A stretch of 10,956 nucleotides of DNA from Granulicella sp. (GTDB taxonomy: Bacteria; Acidobacteriota; Terriglobia; Terriglobales; Acidobacteriaceae): positions 1 through 10,956 of the forward strand of contig PKWK01000345.1 of assembly GCA_003133205.1 (NCBI GenBank), in the 5' to 3' direction. The position numbers and the translations under genes were made by a program. Numbering within the stretch: position 1 is the stretch's first letter; every line of letters starts with the position of its first letter. The notes under the pieces were generated by a model, which searched no databases, was not told the DNA's origin, and saw only the letters and a program-made list of their open reading frames with translations. Below are positions 2,833 to 10,956 of this stretch, in pieces.

Positions 2833-4752
2833 TTATCTATTCGGATTGGCGACATCTTCCCACACCGGTCCCGGAAAAATATGTGACCCGACGTCCACCC
2901 CCAGAGTTGGTTGGACAGGACCGCCGGAAGCCGTACCATGACTGGCCCAGTCTCTGTAGGTGTTCTGCAGAACAAAGAACGCTTCCTTCTTTTCGCCGCG
3001 GTTCGAGATCAGACCTTTTCGGTTGTATCCGTCCTGTATGCCCGGGAGCTGTCGCATGGGTGACCGAAAGTCCATCAGTATCCAAGGACTCAGGCCACGA
3101 AATTGCGGGATTTTGGCGAGCATAGGAAGTTGATGCCGGAAGATGCTGGCCTGATACTCTTCGGTCCAGCGTTTGGTCTCCAGGCCGTGCATGCCAGCTT
3201 TTGCATCGCCGCCGAATTCGCTGACGATGAGAGGCTTCTGATAGCTGACGTGCCAGATGGTCGTGTCCGCGTCCTGCGGCAACTGCTCGTACCAGCCGAT
3301 GTATTCGTTCATGCCGATCACATCCAGGGCCTCACCCAGCGGATCGTCGACATATTTGTCGTGCCCCTCGGAACGAACCAGCAGCGCCGCGGTGACCAGC
3401 CTGGTCGAGTCGAGTGCGCGCACATCCGCGGCCAGCGTCTTCAGAAACGCCGTCCGCTCTGGAGTCATCGGCGTCTCGTTCGCGATCGACCAGAGCACGA
3501 TCGACGCCTTGTCCCGGTCTCGGCGAATCTCCTCGCGCAGCTGCTGTTCGGCCTTCGCAAGCACAGTAGCGTCGCCGAAGTGTTCAGCCCAGTAGACGGG
3601 AATCTCCGACCACACCATCAACCCCAGGCGGTCGGCGGTGCGAGTCATCCGCTGATCGTGAGGATAGTGCGCAAGACGCACATAGTTGCAACCCAGCTCC
3701 TTCGCCCAGCCCAGCAATGTGGCTGCATCCTCGTCGTTGTTGGCGCGGCCCCCGCGAATGGGAGCCTCTGCATGGATGGAGATGCCGCGAAGAAATACAG
3801 GCTTGCCGTTCAGCAGGATGTCCGTTCCGCGTACTTCAATCGTGCGGAATCCTATCTCGTCGTCAAGGCTGTCCTCCGCGGCCTGTAGGCGCACCTTGTA
3901 GAGCTTCGGTTCCTCCGGCGTCCACAACGCAACACCGGCGGCAGACAGCGAGAAGATAGCCCGGTTGTCCGTGCCAAGCTTGGCGGAAACGCTGCGGCCC
4001 AATTCCGGGAGCGAGACCGTGATTTGCTCGCCGGGTTCAGCGCCTTCGACATGCACACTGCCTTCAATGGCCGTGCGGTCACGATTCAAGTGCAGGTCAT
4101 AATCGTCGATGTACTGCGCCGGAAGATCGATCAGAGACACATCGCGCGTGAGCCCGCCATAGTTCCACCAATCCGTATTAAGCGTAGGCACACCGTCGGC
4201 AAGGCGCGTATTGTCGACGGCGATCACCACGAAGTTCTTGCCTTCGTGGATGCTGGCCGAGACGTCGCAGTCAAAGGCTGTAAAGCCGCCTTCATGAGTG
4301 CACGCTTGTTGCCCATTCACCCAGGCGATTGACTTGTAGTTAGCCGCTCCGATATGAAGAAACGTCTTGTGATTCGCGATCGGCTCGTAGCTGAAATCGC
4401 GCTGATACCACAGCAGACCCTCGTAGTAGAAAAGCGAGTCATGCTGTGTATTCCAGTCCCCGGGAACTTTAAGCGTTGGCGACTTGCTAAAGTCGTACTC
4501 GATCAGGCCATCGCTGCCGGTCTCCGGCGCGCCGTTGAGGAAAAAGCCATCCTTTCGCAACTCGCGATGGAAGGTATAGAGACCCCCGTCGTAGGGGTCA
4601 ACGATATAGTGCCAGTCCCCGTTCAGGCTCATCGTTTTCCGGTGATCAACATCAACCAGGACTGTTGACTTGCCTTGGCCGAAAGCCGGAATTGCAAGCA
4701 ACGCCAGAGCAACGGTCTGCACAGACAGTCTCTTCCACATAGGACGCTTCAC
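2833..4752 (-). CDS. Exported glycoside hydrolase family 2 enzyme (beta-glucuronidase/beta-galactosidase type)
   Basis: From the chosen GTG at 4752 the protein is 639 residues. Residues 1-25 form a signal peptide (KRPMWKR, a hydrophobic core, then AFG before Q26), so the enzyme acts in the periplasm or outside. A sugar-binding jelly-roll fold covers about 35-205 (SLNGDWHY, GLLWYQRDF), an immunoglobulin-like domain about 210-310, and a catalytic TIM barrel about 315-600. The acid/base is the Glu in WSIANETP (E426), and the nucleophile is the Glu in VSEFGGD (E512). The late motif PWILMDFRSP followed by GYNRKGL is typical of glucuronidase-like GH2 members. Exact sugar specificity cannot be read. 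The GTG start is chosen because AAGGGGAG lies six bases before it; the upstream ATG at 4797 sits in the loop of a strong hairpin and has no ribosome binding site. The gene follows the receptor gene in the same direction, 71 bases away, a likely operon for import and cleavage of one glycan. Confidence 0.9.
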   Translation of the reverse strand: MKRPMWKRLSVQTVALALLAIPAFGQGKSTVLVDVDHRKTMSLNGDWHYIVDPYDGGLYTFHRELRKDGFFLNGAPETGSDGLIEYDFSKSPTLKVPGDWNTQHDSLFYYEGLLWYQRDFSYEPIANHKTFLHIGAANYKSIAWVNGQQACTHEGGFTAFDCDVSASIHEGKNFVVIAVDNTRLADGVPTLNTDWWNYGGLTRDVSLIDLPAQYIDDYDLHLNRDRTAIEGSVHVEGAEPGEQITVSLPELGRSVSAKLGTDNRAIFSLSAAGVALWTPEEPKLYKVRLQAAEDSLDDEIGFRTIEVRGTDILLNGKPVFLRGISIHAEAPIRGGRANNDEDAATLLGWAKELGCNYVRLAHYPHDQRMTRTADRLGLMVWSEIPVYWAEHFGDATVLAKAEQQLREEIRRDRDKASIVLWSIANETPMTPERTAFLKTLAADVRALDSTRLVTAALLVRSEGHDKYVDDPLGEALDVIGMNEYIGWYEQLPQDADTTIWHVSYQKPLIVSEFGGDAKAGMHGLETKRWTEEYQASIFRHQLPMLAKIPQFRGLSPWILMDFRSPMRQLPGIQDGYNRKGLISNRGEKKEAFFVLQNTYRDWASHGTASGGPVQPTLGVDVGSHIFPGPVWEDVANPNR

Positions 4753-4758
4753 CACGGG

Positions 4759-4766
4759 CTCCCCTT
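4759..4766 (-). promoter_or_regulatory. Ribosome binding site of the GH2 gene, decides the GTG start
   Basis: AAGGGGAG on the minus strand ends six bases before GTG at 4752 and three before another GTG at 4755. It is 18 bases from the next ATG at 4740. This favours 4752 as the start and a product beginning with KRPMWKR after the initiator. Confidence 0.6.
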
Positions 4767-4782
4767 CCCAACTTGAGTGATT

Positions 4783-4813
4783 GGGGCGGCGGTGCAAGTT
4801 TTGCCGCCGCCCC
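4783..4813 (-). terminator. Strong GC-rich intercistronic hairpin between receptor and GH2 genes
   Basis: GGGGCGGCGG (4783-4792) and CCGCCGCCCC (4804-4813) are perfect 10-base complements around an 11-base loop, with CAA/TTG pairing possible inside the loop. It begins 11 bases after the receptor stop codon and ends about 17 bases before the GH2 ribosome binding site. No T run follows on the minus strand. The likely role is partial termination or protection of the receptor mRNA 3' end, lowering hydrolase output relative to receptor. Confidence 0.65.
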
Positions 4814-4823
4814 TGAGGATGGG

Positions 4824-7800
4824 TTAGAAGGTCAACCGTGCGCCGAGTTGGATGACGCGTTGAGTCCCGGCTGCTGAGGTGATGTTGCCCTGAGAGCTAG
4901 ACGAGATGTTCCCGGCGGACGGGTTGTTGAGACTCACCCAGTTCATGACGTTGGTCACTTCGACGCGGAACTGGAACGCCACTCCCCCCTCGAATTGAAT
5001 GTTGCGCAAAAGCGCCGCATCCATGTCCTTGAGGCCCGGCCCGACCAGGGTGTCGCGTCCCACGTTGCCATCTGCGCCGCCAGGGCCGATGCCGCCTACT
5101 ACACCAGGTCCGTTGGCCATGAACGAAGCTCCGGTGGGGTTCTTGAGGTAGTCTGTGCCATTGAACCATTGCGTCACGACGCTAGTTGGGCTCTGGCCAG
5201 TGGCACCGCATACACGGCAGCGGTGTGGATCGAGCTTGGGGCTGGGCCCGCCAGGATTGACGTTGGGGCGGCTTGAGCCCTGACTGTCAAAGTTCTTGTT
5301 GGATCCCGTGCTCACCGTAAACGGCGTGCCGCTCATCAAATAGACTACCGGTGAGATCTGCCAGCCGTTGACCACTTCCTGCACGATCTTGTTCGATCCG
5401 TGGAAGTAGTCGATTTTCCACATGCCGGAGATGGCAGCATTGCTGTTACGGTTTTGATCCATGAGGCCATATTCTTCGTCAAGGCCGCCGCCGAGGGCGC
5501 CGTATTTGTTGTTGAACAGGGTGAAGGGCTTGCCAAGCACTCCGAAATCCTGCGCGCTCATCCCTCCATTCTCCACCGGGTTTGAGTGTTCCAGAGCGCG
5601 GCTCCAGACATAGAAACCGCTGACTGAGAAGCCGTGTGACATCGACTTGGTCGCCGAGATTTGAAGCCCGTTATAGTTGGAGGTCTGGTCTGAGATCAGA
5701 TCGGTAATCCCGGTCAGGGTGCCAGCCGCACCGGCAGGGCCGGCATCGTATTGACGACGGACATCAGTGCTGGCCCCCGAAGTGCTGGGGGTGATGGTGG
5801 CGCCGAGGTAGTTGACGGTTGCGTAAGGCGCGTAGTTGGCGTCAAGGAAGGTTTGCAGGTGACGGCCAAGGGTGCCTACATACGCAGCCGAGGCGGTTAC
5901 GTTGTAAGGCAATTGCCGCTGCAGGCTGAAGTTGAACTGGTAGACCGACGAATATTTGACATTCGGGTTAATGGCTTCAATGCTTTGGCTCGGGTAGAAT
6001 TTCGGAGCGGACGGCGTGTAGGTGTATGGGAAGATACCTCCGCCGGAAGCGGTGCTCGGGAAGTTGTAAGCGGGGCCACCGTACAGATTTGTGAGGGATG
6101 GAGTGTTGCCAAAGTTGTTGCGAATGGAGAACGGCATGGCGTTGCCGGGCTGGTTCCACTCATTGCCGCTGGGAATACCATAGAAGATGCCCGCTGCGGC
6201 GCGAACCGAGGTCTTGCCGTCCCCAAACGGGTCCCATGCAAAACCGACACGAGGCGAAATGTGGGTGAACGACGTGGAGATGATGCCGCGACCGATTCCG
6301 CTGTCCCCAGGGAAAACTTGACCTAACGGAGCAGCCGGAGTGACAGTGGATTGCTGGCCGGGAACAAACGAGGCCGTCCTGTCATGGGCATCGACGGGAG
6401 GCGTATCGATATCCCAACGAAGGCCAAGGTTGGCCGTGAAACGATTCGTGATGCGGTAGTTGTCCTGCGCAAACGCCGCGATGTGCCACGTGCTCAGATG
6501 CGTGACATAATGCGAGTCCTGCTCAAATGAGCTGGTCTGGCCGCTGACAAAGTCCGAAAACACATTACCTGTGCTGGTGGGCGCCGAGTTGGCGAAGTTA
6601 ACGTCGCCATAATTATTCAGATTGGCGAGGAACATGGTCTTGTCGAGAGCGAACTCACCGCCAATGGCAAGACTATGTTTGCCCTTGGTCAAGTTGACTA
6701 TGTCGCGTAACTCATAGTTGTCGGAACCCGTGACCGGGCCGGCGTTCGGGTTGCCCGTTTGAAAAGCGCCAGAACCGAGGTTTATATAGGGCAGTCCGGC
6801 CGGGCCATCGATTACGAAGGGATTCGTCGTATTCGTGGTTTGAAAGCTGGCAAGGGTTTGGGTGGTTGGGCCGGTCACAGGGATGAGAGCGCGTCCGCCC
6901 ATGGCCCGCGTGAAGGTGAGCCAGGTCTGATTGGCCAAGCTGGGGTTGAAGGTGTGAACATCGGCGAGGGTGACATTCGTCTGAGCCGCAGCGGACTGAT
7001 TTCCGGTCCAATTGATGTTGCCGCCTCCGCTGGGAGTCGACTTGGTCTTGACAAAAAAGTAGGTCGCTGTCACATGGTCCGCATTGCCGACATTCTGGTC
7101 ATACTTTCCCAGGTATTCGTCTGAGTTTGTCGGAGTAGTGTACTCGCCGAGGTATTGCGCGCCGCCGCTCGCTTGGGTCGGGCCGGTGGGCAACGGAACG
7201 GAAACACCGATTTTGTTGTTTACGTTCAAGAAATTGGCAGCGGTCGGATCCAGGAGTGCCGTGGGTATGCAGTTCGGTTTGTCAGTCTGGCAACCCGGGC
7301 TGGAGTTTGTACCGTGGATGATGTTCGCGGGGACCCGCCAGGCGGCCGCGGTCGTGCCGAGCGGTTGCGGGAAGTACACAGGGAAGCTGTCCGCGGTAAA
7401 GTCGCCCGCGCGCTCGGCAGCCGTGGGCACGAAAGCGCCTGAGACCGGTGCTCCTTGTGTCTGGCGCAGACCGGCATAGCTGAAGAAGAAGAAGGCTTTG
7501 TCGTGCTTGATGGGGCCGCCGAAGGCTCCGCCAAAGTTGTTGCGGTGATAAGGGAGCTTCATCGGTGCCCCGGTAAGGGGGTTCTTGGTCGGAATCCAAC
7601 TAAAAGCGTTGAAAGCGGTGTTGCGGTCGAACTCAAACAACTCGCCATGAAACTTGTTGCTTCCCGACTTGGTGATCACCGTGACCACTGCGCCGGAGAA
7701 TTGGCCGTATTGAGCCTGGAATGCGTTGGTCTCTACGCGGAACTCTTCAAGTGCGGCGGGATTGGGAGCCGGGTTTCCGTAGTTGCGCATCCCGGTAATG

Positions 7801-8480
7801 TTGTTGCCGCCGTCTAGATAAAATGCGACGGTTCCGTTGCCGGAGTCGAGCGAACCGTTGACCTGGACAGCCGCGGACGGCAGTCCAACGGTCATATTGG
7901 GGGTGCCGCTGGGGTTGCTGGTGGGGCTGTTGCTATTGGACATCACTCCCGGTGTGAGCGAGAGTTCGGCGTATACGTTGCGATTGACCAGGGGCAGGCC
8001 GATGATCTCATCCAACCCAATGGTCCTGCCCAATACCGCGTCAGACGTATTGATCTGCGGGGGAGCTTCAGTGACCGTGACGGTCTGAGACGCCGCTCCC
8101 ACGGTCAGTGCGATGTCAACCGTCAGCGTCTGGTCCACGCTGAGGGTGAGATTCTGCTGCACAACGCGTTGGAAGCCTTTCGACTCCACTTCGACGGTGT
8201 ACTTGCCCACGGGGAGGTAATCGATGCGGTACTGCCCATAGCCGTTGGTCGGCGCCACCCGGGAGTACCCGGTATCCGCATTGGTTGCTTTCGCGGTGGC
8301 CGTGCTGACCACTGCGCCGGTTTGATCCTCCACCGTACCGACGATGGACCCGGTGGTCTGCTGCGCATACGCCGACGCGAAGCTCGCAAAGATCAACACT
8401 GCCATCACCCACAAGCAGCGGGTGAAAAATCGCTTTGTGGAGTGGACCGTCTCGCTGTTCGTCTTCATCAAGTTCGTCAT
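4824..8480 (-). CDS. TonB-dependent receptor, Oar-like, with carboxypeptidase-regulatory-like domain
   Basis: The 1,218-residue product is an outer-membrane transporter of the large acidobacterial type. A signal peptide (1-39) ends with a hydrophobic core and AYA before Q40. A carboxypeptidase-regulatory-like beta-sandwich follows (about 42-130: GSIVGTVEDQTGAVV, then YRIDYLPVGKYTVEVES). The plug domain spans about 140-275 and includes FYLDGGNNITG, EEFRVETNAFQAQYGQFSGA and VITKSGSNKFHGE. The remainder is a 22-strand-type barrel ending VIQLGARLTF, with the terminal Phe expected for outer-membrane insertion. The ATG at 8480 is supported by GGAGAAG (8492-8486) five bases upstream. The receptor should import a ligand, probably an oligosaccharide given the GH2 gene behind it and the malectin sensor in front; the ligand itself is inferred. 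An unusual CRVCG motif lies in the late barrel (about 5200-5220), where relatives usually lack cysteine. Confidence 0.93.
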   Translation of the reverse strand: MTNLMKTNSETVHSTKRFFTRCLWVMAVLIFASFASAYAQQTTGSIVGTVEDQTGAVVSTATAKATNADTGYSRVAPTNGYGQYRIDYLPVGKYTVEVESKGFQRVVQQNLTLSVDQTLTVDIALTVGAASQTVTVTEAPPQINTSDAVLGRTIGLDEIIGLPLVNRNVYAELSLTPGVMSNSNSPTSNPSGTPNMTVGLPSAAVQVNGSLDSGNGTVAFYLDGGNNITGMRNYGNPAPNPAALEEFRVETNAFQAQYGQFSGAVVTVITKSGSNKFHGELFEFDRNTAFNAFSWIPTKNPLTGAPMKLPYHRNNFGGAFGGPIKHDKAFFFFSYAGLRQTQGAPVSGAFVPTAAERAGDFTADSFPVYFPQPLGTTAAAWRVPANIIHGTNSSPGCQTDKPNCIPTALLDPTAANFLNVNNKIGVSVPLPTGPTQASGGAQYLGEYTTPTNSDEYLGKYDQNVGNADHVTATYFFVKTKSTPSGGGNINWTGNQSAAAQTNVTLADVHTFNPSLANQTWLTFTRAMGGRALIPVTGPTTQTLASFQTTNTTNPFVIDGPAGLPYINLGSGAFQTGNPNAGPVTGSDNYELRDIVNLTKGKHSLAIGGEFALDKTMFLANLNNYGDVNFANSAPTSTGNVFSDFVSGQTSSFEQDSHYVTHLSTWHIAAFAQDNYRITNRFTANLGLRWDIDTPPVDAHDRTASFVPGQQSTVTPAAPLGQVFPGDSGIGRGIISTSFTHISPRVGFAWDPFGDGKTSVRAAAGIFYGIPSGNEWNQPGNAMPFSIRNNFGNTPSLTNLYGGPAYNFPSTASGGGIFPYTYTPSAPKFYPSQSIEAINPNVKYSSVYQFNFSLQRQLPYNVTASAAYVGTLGRHLQTFLDANYAPYATVNYLGATITPSTSGASTDVRRQYDAGPAGAAGTLTGITDLISDQTSNYNGLQISATKSMSHGFSVSGFYVWSRALEHSNPVENGGMSAQDFGVLGKPFTLFNNKYGALGGGLDEEYGLMDQNRNSNAAISGMWKIDYFHGSNKIVQEVVNGWQISPVVYLMSGTPFTVSTGSNKNFDSQGSSRPNVNPGGPSPKLDPHRCRVCGATGQSPTSVVTQWFNGTDYLKNPTGASFMANGPGVVGGIGPGGADGNVGRDTLVGPGLKDMDAALLRNIQFEGGVAFQFRVEVTNVMNWVSLNNPSAGNISSSSQGNITSAAGTQRVIQLGARLTF

Positions 8481-8540
8481 GAAAGCTTCTCCGTCGCTGG
8501 TTGCGTTGCAAAATATTTCATTGGAAAACCATGCCGAAAC

Positions 8541-8566
8541 GTGACCCTTTCAAGTCCACAGGTCAC
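8541..8566. promoter_or_regulatory. Inverted repeat upstream of the receptor gene, possible operator
   Basis: GTGACC at 8541-8546 and GGTCAC at 8561-8566 are exact complements with starts 20 bases apart, two helical turns. The repeat lies about 60-85 bases upstream of the receptor ATG. It fits a dimer binding site or a leader hairpin; only symmetry and position support it. Confidence 0.35.
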
Positions 8567-8739
8567 TTCGCAACGGCAAAGTTTGTCGTGCTATTGCTGA
8601 CACACCCTAGCAACGGTTCTCGATCCTGTCTTGTGAATTCGCAGTGAATGAAAGTTATCGGCTGGTAAGCCATTCGGCCTGCAAATGGTCGCAGTGTTTC
8701 ACCCGAGAAATGTTGAGGATGGAAGTTGTTATTTCGGCC

Positions 8740-8757
8740 TGTTAGCGTTTGTTAGCG
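8740..8757 (+). promoter_or_regulatory. Tandem 8-base direct repeat with 10-base period, candidate winged-helix site
   Basis: TGTTAGCG occurs at 8740-8747 and again at 8750-8757, separated by TT. The exact 10-base periodicity places both copies on the same DNA face, as in sites of OmpR/PhoB/ToxR-type winged-helix proteins. The adjacent plus-strand gene encodes a protein with such a domain, so this is the best candidate for its own binding site. Confidence 0.4.
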
Positions 8758-8862
8758 ATTTGCAAGCTGCTCGCGGATCAGCAAGTTAGGTGCGCTGGGC
8801 GACGAATGCCGCAACCATCAAGCGTGGCAAACATACGTTCCAAACATCCCCGAACTTCTACG

Positions 8863-8892
8863 TTGTAGACGGTTGGTCAAGGGGTATAGAAT
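8863..8892 (+). promoter_or_regulatory. Probable promoter for the malectin regulator
   Basis: TTGTAG (8863-8868) is followed after 18 bases by TAGAAT (8887-8892), within the longer string TATAGAAT (8885-8892). The -10 matches the sigma-70 consensus at five of six positions; the -35 matches at only three. The predicted transcript start, around 8897-8900, falls just before the GTG at 8901 and would give an almost leaderless mRNA. Confidence 0.45.
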
Positions 8893-8900
8893 CGCCCTCC

Positions 8901-10463
8901 GTGGGAGCTATTGGAACACCCGAGTACGTTGCGACAGCAGAAGCCGGAACCGAGGCCGAACGACGAGAACTCGATTGGCTCCTGACGTCCGGCGTCCTTG
9001 GCCGGTCAGGCAATCTGGCGCGCGTTTTGAAATACATCTGCGAAGAGCGCTTCGCGGGCCGGGCGAATCAGATCAAGGGGTACTCGATTGCGACCGAGGC
9101 TCTTGGGCGACGGCTTGATTTTGATCCCAACTTCGACACCATCGTACGCGTAACGGTCCACTCTCTTCGGAAACGTCTCCTGGAGGTCTACCAGAACGAA
9201 GGGGCAGACCGGCCGATGCGACTGATGCTTCCCCCAGGTCACTATAACCCTCGTTTTGTTCCGGCAGCGCAGTTAGAACCACCGGGCACTCTTACGTCGG
9301 GGCCGGGAGGAGCGAATTTAAGCCATCACGGCGGCCTGGGTTCAGTAGCACTGGACAAGGTCGACACAGCATGGGGTCCCCAGCCATCCTCCAGGCGAGT
9401 TCAGATTTGGTCCACGGGAGTTGTCGCGCTCTGCCTGACAATTGCAGCGTCTGCCCTGTGGTGGGTCCGAAACCAGCAAAACAAGGGATTGCACCCGTTG
9501 GAGTTTGCCTCGGCGGCGGGGGCTCTGCCACTGCCTCCTCCGCAAGCTACGATTCGGGCTCTCATGGGCAGCGGCCGCCGGCCCTATGTTGACCACTCCG
9601 GAGTCACTTGGGTTACGGGCAACTACTGCCAGGGAGGAACGAACGTAACGGTCCCGCCCCAAAATATCGGGAGCACGCAGGACGCTCCGCTCTATCTCGG
9701 CGGGGTGCGCGGAATTGCTCACTGCGTATTTCCCGTGACGCAGAAACTTTACGAGCTGCACTTCCACTTTGCCGAAACCTCGGATCTTCCGGCGGCTACG
9801 CGATTGGCTACCCTCTCCATCAATGCCGGACCTGCCATTGGCGTGGATGTTGTCGACGATGCGGGCGGCGACGGCATCGCGACGTCCACCGTAGTGACCG
9901 GTGTGGCACCCGAGAACGACGGTTCCATTCACATCGACTACACCAGTGAGATTTCCCTGCTGAACGCCGTGGAGATTATTCCGGCGCCCTCGGCAAGTCT
10001 GCTGCCCGTGCGAATTGTGGTGAACTCAAAGCCCTACATCGATAGCGCGAATCAGTTTTGGGCGTCCGATCGCTACTTCAGCGGAGGGCGTTACGGCCTG
10101 CCTCCCGAATCAGCTAAACGCGCGAAGCTGGGGCTATACGAATCGGACCGCATCGGCCGCTTCCGTTACAGCATTCCGGCTGTCCCCATAGCTCATTACC
10201 GCGTCAGGCTTCACTTTCGTGAGCCTTGGTTTGGCACGGAGAATGGCGGGATCGGGGGCCCCGGAAGTCGGGTGTTCGATGTCGCTTGCAACGGTGAAAT
10301 GCTCCTGAAGAACTTTGACATCCTTGCCGAAGGTGGCTCCGCGCCCGTCGTCAAGACCTTCGACCATATCCAGGCGACCGCCGGCGGCAGGATCGAGCTC
10401 TCCTTCATGCCGGTGGTTAATTACGCCGTTGTGAATGCCATCGAGGTTCTTCCCGAAAACTAA
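8901..10463 (+). CDS. Membrane one-component regulator candidate: winged-helix-like domain, TM helix, two malectin domains
   Basis: From GTG at 8901 the product is 520 residues. Residues about 21-119 form a helical domain (ELDWLLTSGVLGRSGNLARV, then IVRVTVHSLRKRLLEVY and LMLPPGHYNPRF). Its VxVHSLRKRL helix and terminal GHY-x-x-RF wing resemble the OmpR/ToxR C-terminal winged helix (VHIxRLRKKL...GVGYRF). One membrane helix lies at about 167-189, after SRR. Two malectin-like carbohydrate-binding domains follow at about 218-361 (DHSGVTWVTGNYCQGG, ELHFHFAETSD) and 370-517 (NQFWASDRYFSGG, YRVRLHFREPWF). The order implies a cytoplasmic DNA-binding end and a periplasmic sugar-binding end, as in ToxR/CadC-type regulators. 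The divergent receptor and GH2 genes are its likely targets. An upstream in-frame GTG at 8790 would add 37 residues of unlikely composition and has no ribosome binding site, so 8901 is preferred. Regulatory function is inferred; a purely structural carbohydrate-binding role is possible. Confidence 0.82.
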   Translation: MGAIGTPEYVATAEAGTEAERRELDWLLTSGVLGRSGNLARVLKYICEERFAGRANQIKGYSIATEALGRRLDFDPNFDTIVRVTVHSLRKRLLEVYQNEGADRPMRLMLPPGHYNPRFVPAAQLEPPGTLTSGPGGANLSHHGGLGSVALDKVDTAWGPQPSSRRVQIWSTGVVALCLTIAASALWWVRNQQNKGLHPLEFASAAGALPLPPPQATIRALMGSGRRPYVDHSGVTWVTGNYCQGGTNVTVPPQNIGSTQDAPLYLGGVRGIAHCVFPVTQKLYELHFHFAETSDLPAATRLATLSINAGPAIGVDVVDDAGGDGIATSTVVTGVAPENDGSIHIDYTSEISLLNAVEIIPAPSASLLPVRIVVNSKPYIDSANQFWASDRYFSGGRYGLPPESAKRAKLGLYESDRIGRFRYSIPAVPIAHYRVRLHFREPWFGTENGGIGGPGSRVFDVACNGEMLLKNFDILAEGGSAPVVKTFDHIQATAGGRIELSFMPVVNYAVVNAIEVLPEN

Positions 10464-10798: not shown

Positions 10799-10956
10799 TT
10801 ATGCGGCCTGGATGTTCGAAGCCTGCATACCCTTGGGTCCCTTAGTCGCTTCGAAGGTCACTTTCTGACCTTCCTGAAGTGACTTGAAGCCGCTCGACGC
10901 GATCGCAGAGTAGTGGGCAAAGAGGTCTGCGCTGCCGTCGTCCGGGGTGATAAAGC
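10799..10956 (-). CDS. Cold-shock protein (CspA family), C-terminal 51 residues (runs off right edge)
   Basis: The minus-strand frame enters from the window edge and ends at TAA (10801-10799). It reads [18 protein letters not shown], then a segment including [21 protein letters not shown], ending ASNIQAA. This is the C-terminal two thirds of a single cold-shock domain of about 65-70 residues. The first RNA-binding motif (KGFGFI) is only represented by its final residues FI, and the second motif appears as DLFAHY. Family members are small cytoplasmic proteins that bind single-stranded RNA and DNA and melt mRNA structure. The N-terminus, promoter and long cold-shock leader lie outside the window. 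It is convergent with the malectin gene and not functionally linked to it. Confidence 0.93.

Follow-up and report, generated by a model that had tools for sequence, protein, structure and literature searches.

Background

Regulators of the ToxR/CadC type carry an N-terminal OmpR-like winged helix, a linker, a single membrane helix and a periplasmic sensor, and the OmpR-type winged helix itself begins with an N-terminal beta-sheet. The plant receptors FERONIA and ANXUR place two malectin domains outside, a single membrane helix and a kinase inside. Glycan loci of Bacteroidota are controlled by hybrid two-component systems, SusR and sigma/anti-sigma pairs.

Here we analyse a stretch of 10,956 nucleotides from Granulicella sp. 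(contig PKWK01000345.1; hereafter the window), where a gene for a candidate regulator with malectin domains lies divergent from an outer-membrane receptor gene and a GH2 hydrolase gene. The architecture of this protein, its fold prediction, the conserved divergent pairing and a family-wide cis-element linked to the regulator are established below, and we consider it likely that the protein sits in the membrane and regulates transcription of the divergent operon.

Architecture of the candidate regulator

The open reading frame (ORF) 8790-10463 (+) encodes 557 amino acids. Many homologue N-termini begin with MGAIGT, VGAIGT or similar, which makes GTG 8901 a likelier start than 8790 and a protein of 520 residues the likely product. 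Its parts are as follows:

8901..10463, + strand: regulator coding sequence, 520 amino acids, likely start from homologue N-termini (frame open from GTG 8790)
8940..9266, + strand: N-terminal winged-helix domain, residues 14-122, four helices and then a beta-hairpin wing, by fold prediction
9141..9194, + strand: helix 4 of this domain (residues 81-98, IVRVTVHSLRKRLLEVYQ region), the predicted recognition helix, by model and alignment
9399..9476, + strand: single transmembrane helix, residues 167-192, by fold prediction and hydrophobic stretch
9543..9986, + strand: first (divergent) malectin domain, about residues 215-362, by model and Foldseek, with a Pfam match only in relatives
10002..10460, + strand: second malectin domain, about residues 368-520, by Pfam, model and Foldseek

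A search with query residues 45-165 gave 220 homologues at E≤1e-3; among the matches listed, 115 of 120 carried a Pfam malectin domain and lengths were mostly 500-550 residues. Identity to the window protein was 58-93% across 52 aligned homologues. The AlphaFold model, built from a 53-row alignment (mean predicted local distance difference test score, pLDDT, 73.2; predicted template modelling score 0.48), shows helices 13-29, 37-51, 60-67 and 81-98 followed by a wing of two strands; a disordered linker leads to helix 167-192, and two beta domains complete the chain. One hydrophobic stretch, residues 167-186, follows the N-terminal domain, so that a predicted DNA-binding fold and a membrane helix would share one chain. 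ORF, homologues and fold prediction thus agree with the first-pass annotation, which had read the protein as a winged-helix-like N-terminal domain joined to a lone membrane helix and a pair of malectin domains, divergent from a receptor and GH2 pair.

Pfam scored a single malectin match in the window protein (PF11721, 58.8 bits against a cut-off of 23, 8.2e-16, residues 443-527 of the 557-residue ORF), found nothing at all in the first 400 residues and missed the first malectin domain; NCBIfam named no part above cut-off. Foldseek aligned the full model first with the ectodomains of ANXUR1/2 and FERONIA, which are malectin tandems (best E 3.6e-15), and then with bacterial beta-glucuronidases and vertebrate malectin. 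The template modelling scores of the plant alignments were only 0.24-0.27 of the query, with a root-mean-square deviation of about 12, so the likeness is domain by domain and not of one body. Since Pfam scores two malectin stretches in relatives L007 and L010, and given the Foldseek matches, the two-domain reading holds, with the first domain divergent in the window.

A predicted divergent winged-helix domain in a large family

Foldseek with the full model was silent on the N-terminal domain, returning malectin-type and other beta folds, and the domain was therefore folded and searched alone. It folded with a pLDDT of 91.5, and its best structural matches, though middling, were OmpR/PhoB-type DNA-binding domains, including that of CadC. 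The structural comparison with OmpR-type winged helices that the earlier reading had called for favours such a fold. The domain also gives a Trans_reg_C-specific profile match and matches no Pfam or NCBIfam model. Pfam Trans_reg_C itself (PF00486, gathering cut-off 26.2) found no match in the window protein; the best relative, one of 14, reached 12.3 bits as a whole protein and E 0.0098 as a domain, below the cut-off. Residues V82, R83, V84, R90 and L93 of the fourth helix are invariant among 16 diverse sequences. We read the domain as a predicted divergent winged helix of the OmpR/PhoB type, and very probably a DNA-binding one.

The regulator is no singleton: it belongs to one arm of a large, unnamed domain family. 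Five acidobacterial genomes carry 10, 4, 4, 27 and 13 copies of the N-terminal domain, and the tails seen among the 30 such proteins that we fetched include the malectin tandem, TPR repeats (by Pfam in L046, L050 and L058) and an unnamed part. The TPR-tailed L046 and L050 contain no hydrophobic stretch, which argues that the domain works in the cytoplasm. The proteins of a second class (L042, L043, L055, L059 and L060) join it to a hydrophobic stretch and this unnamed C-terminal part, which has no Pfam match; at least one of these, L060 (in L190), is likewise divergent from a receptor. With the N-terminal part of L046, tblastn found 277 plasmid records at <60% identity, 97 of them from Sinorhizobium and 97 from Rhizobium. 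The rhizobial proteins are labelled 'adenylate cyclase', 'membrane protein' or hypothetical, labels that may hide a regulator family. The domain was not found in seven non-acidobacterial genomes reached through malectin-only matches, a search made with no positive control.

The whole arrangement of N-terminal domain, helix and malectin part occurs in 13 of 33 loci (L001-L011, L013 and L014), all acidobacterial and, among those aligned, 31-81% identical to the window protein; L008 is cut by a contig end. The remainder are a fragment (L012) and malectin-only matches. In the class, at least 61 of 299 genomes have a match at E≤1e-40, near full length in at least 52. The window's own subtype is rare, with at least 8 of 398 family genomes at E≤1e-150. 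The class search scored five candidates per genome and the family search three, and both counts are lower bounds.

Conserved pairing with a divergent receptor operon

The genes facing the regulator in the window are arranged as follows:

8481..8900, no strand: divergent intergenic region, 420 bp
4824..8480, - strand: outer-membrane receptor (CarboxypepD_reg and OMP_b-brl_4, by Pfam), first gene of the divergent operon
2833..4797, - strand: GH2 hydrolase, beta-glucuronidase-like (Pfam/NCBIfam), 26 bp downstream of the receptor stop, with TTG as the listed start

For the neighbourhood analysis, 63 of 79 class match rows (52 genomes) with about 90% query coverage or more were fetched with flanks of up to 6 kb. 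The ORF caller left the regulator unrecovered in three (L168, L173 and L186), and two of the other 60 lay at a contig edge, leaving 58, with close relatives such as L180/L181 kept in the counts. A receptor is immediately divergent from 36 of these 58 regulators, against 2 of 61 control divergent pairs, which came without such regulators from the same stretches and from 17 paralogue stretches hand-picked from two of five genomes (G001 and G004). Receptor calls relied on a profile iterated from the receptor of the window and therefore miss distant ones. Non-malectin paralogues from two genomes also show the arrangement (6 of 18, p 0.0014). Two smaller samples weigh against a general pairing: a divergent receptor was found for just 3 of 12 regulators on genome contigs, some of them already counted in the class, and in 2 of 6 additional loci.

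The full window arrangement recurs in L001, a Granulicella metagenome-assembled genome (MAG), at 80% identity, and a receptor plus GH2 is again partnered with the regulator in L133 and L135; in L002 the gene order is co-directional. A next gene on the receptor's strand was present in 24 of 38 cases, coding for TPR proteins (8), GH2 (3), GH9 (2) and, in one case, GH30. Divergent neighbours other than receptors include an esterase (L149, L164 and L166) and FG-GAP, ankyrin or TPR proteins. In two loci (L130:5998-11430 and L008:4419-9683) the divergent neighbour is itself a malectin protein, one of 1151 residues with GH16 and four malectin stretches (L130), the other with fn3 and two (L008), and their malectin parts are homologous to the regulator's sensor. 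GH2 is thus one of several cargoes, alongside TPR proteins, GH9, GH30, esterases and GH16.

The receptor barrel scored 609 bits with PF25183, which we take to be an Oar-like family, and CarboxypepD_reg matched as well. The Pfam scan returned no plug-domain model for it, so the label 'TonB-dependent receptor' rests on the barrel family. The GH2 protein reached 241 bits against the beta-glucuronidase equivalog (PRK10150, NF007538), below the cut-off of 544, and is described as beta-glucuronidase-like only. No SusD family was found among the window's five scanned proteins, both receptor-flanking genes included. Elsewhere in the window, a glucose/sorbosone dehydrogenase joined at its C-terminal end to a cytochrome c domain (1136-2701, +) is convergent with GH2, and a gene cut by the window end (10799-10954, -) reads by eye as the C-terminal part of a small cold-shock protein.

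A cis-element linked to the regulator

Thirty-nine regulator-receptor intergenic regions were compared: the 36 above, L001, L006 and the window. GTTA/TAAC dyad pairs stood out, occurring in 13 and 11 of them where none of four randomised sets gave more than 6, and a mixture motif search reached a log-likelihood of 271 against 161-172 in three randomised sets. The same element was recovered in all four cross-validation folds. Held-out scores exceeded those of 30 control divergent regions (p 8e-9, optimistic because control scores repeat over folds) and were a little above those of 7 receptor regions that lack a regulator (p 0.017); only 7 of the 39 regions exceeded the controls' 95th percentile in this scoring.

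As a fixed 16-bp pattern, TAACNNNNNTARCCTW (TAAC-N5-TARCCTW), the element occurs at ≤1 mismatch in 16 of 39 regions; control intergenic regions gave 3 of 170 and coding sequences 0 of 60. At ≤2 mismatches the counts are 27 of 39, 10 of 170 and, in the much longer coding sequences, 18 of 60, or 2.95, 0.28 and 0.19 sites per kb. As these very regions served to choose the pattern, the counts are descriptive. The element is oriented towards the receptor in 25 of 27 regions. At ≤1 mismatch, it begins 91-152 bp from where the regulator ORF starts at 11 of the 16 sites, and it ends 44-172 bp from the start of the receptor ORF at 14 of the 16. Upstream of regulators with another neighbour it is present in 5 of 20 cases (≤1 mismatch) or 7 of 20 (≤2); between non-malectin paralogues and receptors it was found in 0 of 6 at ≤1 mismatch and 1 of 6 at ≤2.

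Genome-wide, three genomes each held one exact site, in the regulator's upstream gap. Nine of ten further genomes had exact sites, with one each, beside a regulator, in G138, G206, G190 and G084. The exact element is therefore unique and beside a regulator in 7 of the 12 genomes that carry exact sites, all scanned genomes except G285 (none) having been chosen for a regulator with an exact site; G206 has two more regulators without it. The reversed pattern occurs 0-14 times in the same 13 genomes. Exact sites total 25, of which 13 were known before the scan; the 12 new ones include two beside a gene for the N-terminal domain (L314, where the gene lies outside our sample, and L318, behind a regulator's stop), two near a receptor start (L310 and L326) and eight elsewhere. 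One contig carries the identical exact element upstream of its regulator and behind the stop (G090:C69:4406-4421 and 6162-6177).

The window's own repeat and helix type

The window's intergenic region gave no match to the family element, its best site having 3 mismatches. This region holds instead:

8740..8759, no strand: direct repeat TGTTAGCGTT/TGTTAGCGAT with a 10-bp period, a candidate operator that L001 retains as TGTTAGCGATTGTTAGTAAT (9424-9443)

The TGTTAGCG 10-bp direct repeat is common to the window and L001 and lies 141 bp from the regulator start in the window; from the sequence, it may be the operator of the regulator. Scanning 8400-8960 for a sigma-70 promoter or a terminator gave no hit. 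In three related loci a GTGAATTC palindrome is flanked by TAAC-type half-sites (L133 at 126, L134 at 78 and L135 at 207, oriented intergenic coordinates), and it may be an alternative operator of that subclade.

The fourth helix reads IVRVT.H(S/A/L)LRKRL in the window's clade and IVRVE.HRLRKKL or similar in others. The element at ≤1 mismatch is present in 15 of 25 regions with an E/Q-type helix against 0 of 8 with a T-type helix (p 0.0036), a covariation that amounts to about one or two events because 7 of the 8 T-type rows form one clade. This comparison omits 6 of the 39 regions, namely L006 (D-type) and five unread or misread, among which L152 has the element. TA[AG]C direct repeats (period 9 or 10) have a density of 2.4 per kb in the eight T-type regions, 2.7 per kb in the other 31 and 0.16 per kb in controls.

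Proposed mechanism and alternative explanations

Mechanistically, we propose a single-pass one-component regulator that would hold a divergent OmpR/PhoB-type winged helix in the cytoplasm and a malectin tandem in the periplasm. The winged helix would bind tandem TAAC/GTTA-type half-sites in the 420-bp divergent region, while the tandem would bind a glycan or oligosaccharide imported by the receptor or released by GH2. Ligand binding would then alter dimerisation or geometry and change transcription of the receptor-GH2 operon, and probably of the regulator's own gene too. We infer the DNA binding, the membrane orientation, the ligand, the direction of regulation, the glycan-to-DNA link and the role of the window's repeat as operator. 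That the signal is a carbohydrate we hold to be slightly favoured.

The regulator might control its own gene only, with the divergence an inherited neighbourhood, the element a part of its own promoter and the receptor operon controlled otherwise. Consistent with this, the element stands upstream of a quarter of the regulators without a called receptor neighbour and begins at a similar distance from the regulator ORF in 11 of 16 sites. Its orientation and its spacing to the receptor start speak against such self-control, as does the excess of receptor pairing over controls among proteins that the tree often separates by more than one change per column, and we judge it improbable. A reading in which the winged helix serves protein contact or dimerisation, making the protein a membrane-anchored scaffold or lectin, has to contend with the basic fourth helix and its invariant R83 and R90, the Trans_reg_C-specific profile match and the linked cis-element; it appears very improbable.

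Even as a regulator of the divergent operon, the protein could receive an envelope or peptide signal, its malectin part binding a protein or envelope component as FERONIA ectodomains bind peptide. The closest solved tandem-malectin folds are indeed those of ANXUR and FERONIA, 6a5e being FERONIA with RALF23 and LLG2, and a TPR protein takes the place of the hydrolase in 8 of 24 paired operons. Next among the fold matches, however, come vertebrate malectin and beta-glucuronidases that carry a domain of this kind, and the L130 and L008 regulators share their module with the GH16 and fn3-malectin neighbours. We regard a non-sugar input as unlikely.

The first-pass annotation had described a sugar-to-DNA switch for a polysaccharide locus that replaces Bacteroidota-type control. 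The predicted OmpR-type fold, the single pass, the tandem malectin, the divergent pairing and the cis-element favour a switch of this build, with sugar as its candidate signal; the notion of replacement does not stand, as the closest named relative is the Granulicella MAG and all 13 loci of the same architecture are acidobacterial.

A wider reading, which taken as a whole we rate an even call, is that the N-terminal domain is an unrecognised, abundant DNA-binding family providing modular, dedicated local switches of Acidobacteriota. Each regulator would serve one outer-membrane uptake operon through one rare or unique operator, with the sensor swapped between malectin tandem, TPR and an unnamed C-terminal domain. 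Jointly with this, operator type would follow the recognition helix: TAACN5TARCCTW would accompany VRVE..HRLR, direct repeats of TAAC at 9-10 bp would accompany VRVT..H.LR as in the window, and the paralogues would have operators of other types, the element being absent from their receptor gaps. Acidobacteriota abound in soil, and a receptor-linked regulator family with a short operator readable from sequence would, if real, allow the glycan locus of each sensor to be predicted. It would also offer a simple one-protein sugar-to-DNA sensor as a model for how a membrane-bound factor acts on the promoter it controls.

Comparison with known systems

A census by Demey et al. (2023) counted 50,302 transmembrane transcription regulators (TTRs) by Pfam DNA-binding domains and named Acidobacteriae as one of the classes in which TTRs are more, or slightly more, numerous (PMC10269533). 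The word 'malectin' is absent from its main text. The census used Pfam models and the N-terminal domain is unmodelled, so this family was probably uncounted. Our literature search, with subscription papers outside its scope, found nothing on the regulation of acidobacterial outer-membrane receptors and nothing linking malectin, acidobacteria and regulation.

With TTRs of the ToxR/CadC type the regulator has its predicted layout in common, and the CadC DNA-binding domain is among the best structural matches of its N-terminal domain. It differs in that this domain falls outside Pfam Trans_reg_C and its model starts with helices, without an N-terminal beta-sheet, and in having a malectin tandem as sensor and a family-wide divergent receptor operon. 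The Bacteroidota hybrid two-component, SusR and sigma/anti-sigma systems likewise tie membrane sensing to glycan loci, but here, in another phylum, a single polypeptide is found in which Pfam detects no kinase, receiver or anti-sigma part. Plant FERONIA and ANXUR resemble its proposed layout, with a malectin tandem on the outer side, one membrane helix and a signalling domain inside; in plants that inner domain is a kinase, whereas here it is a predicted winged helix.
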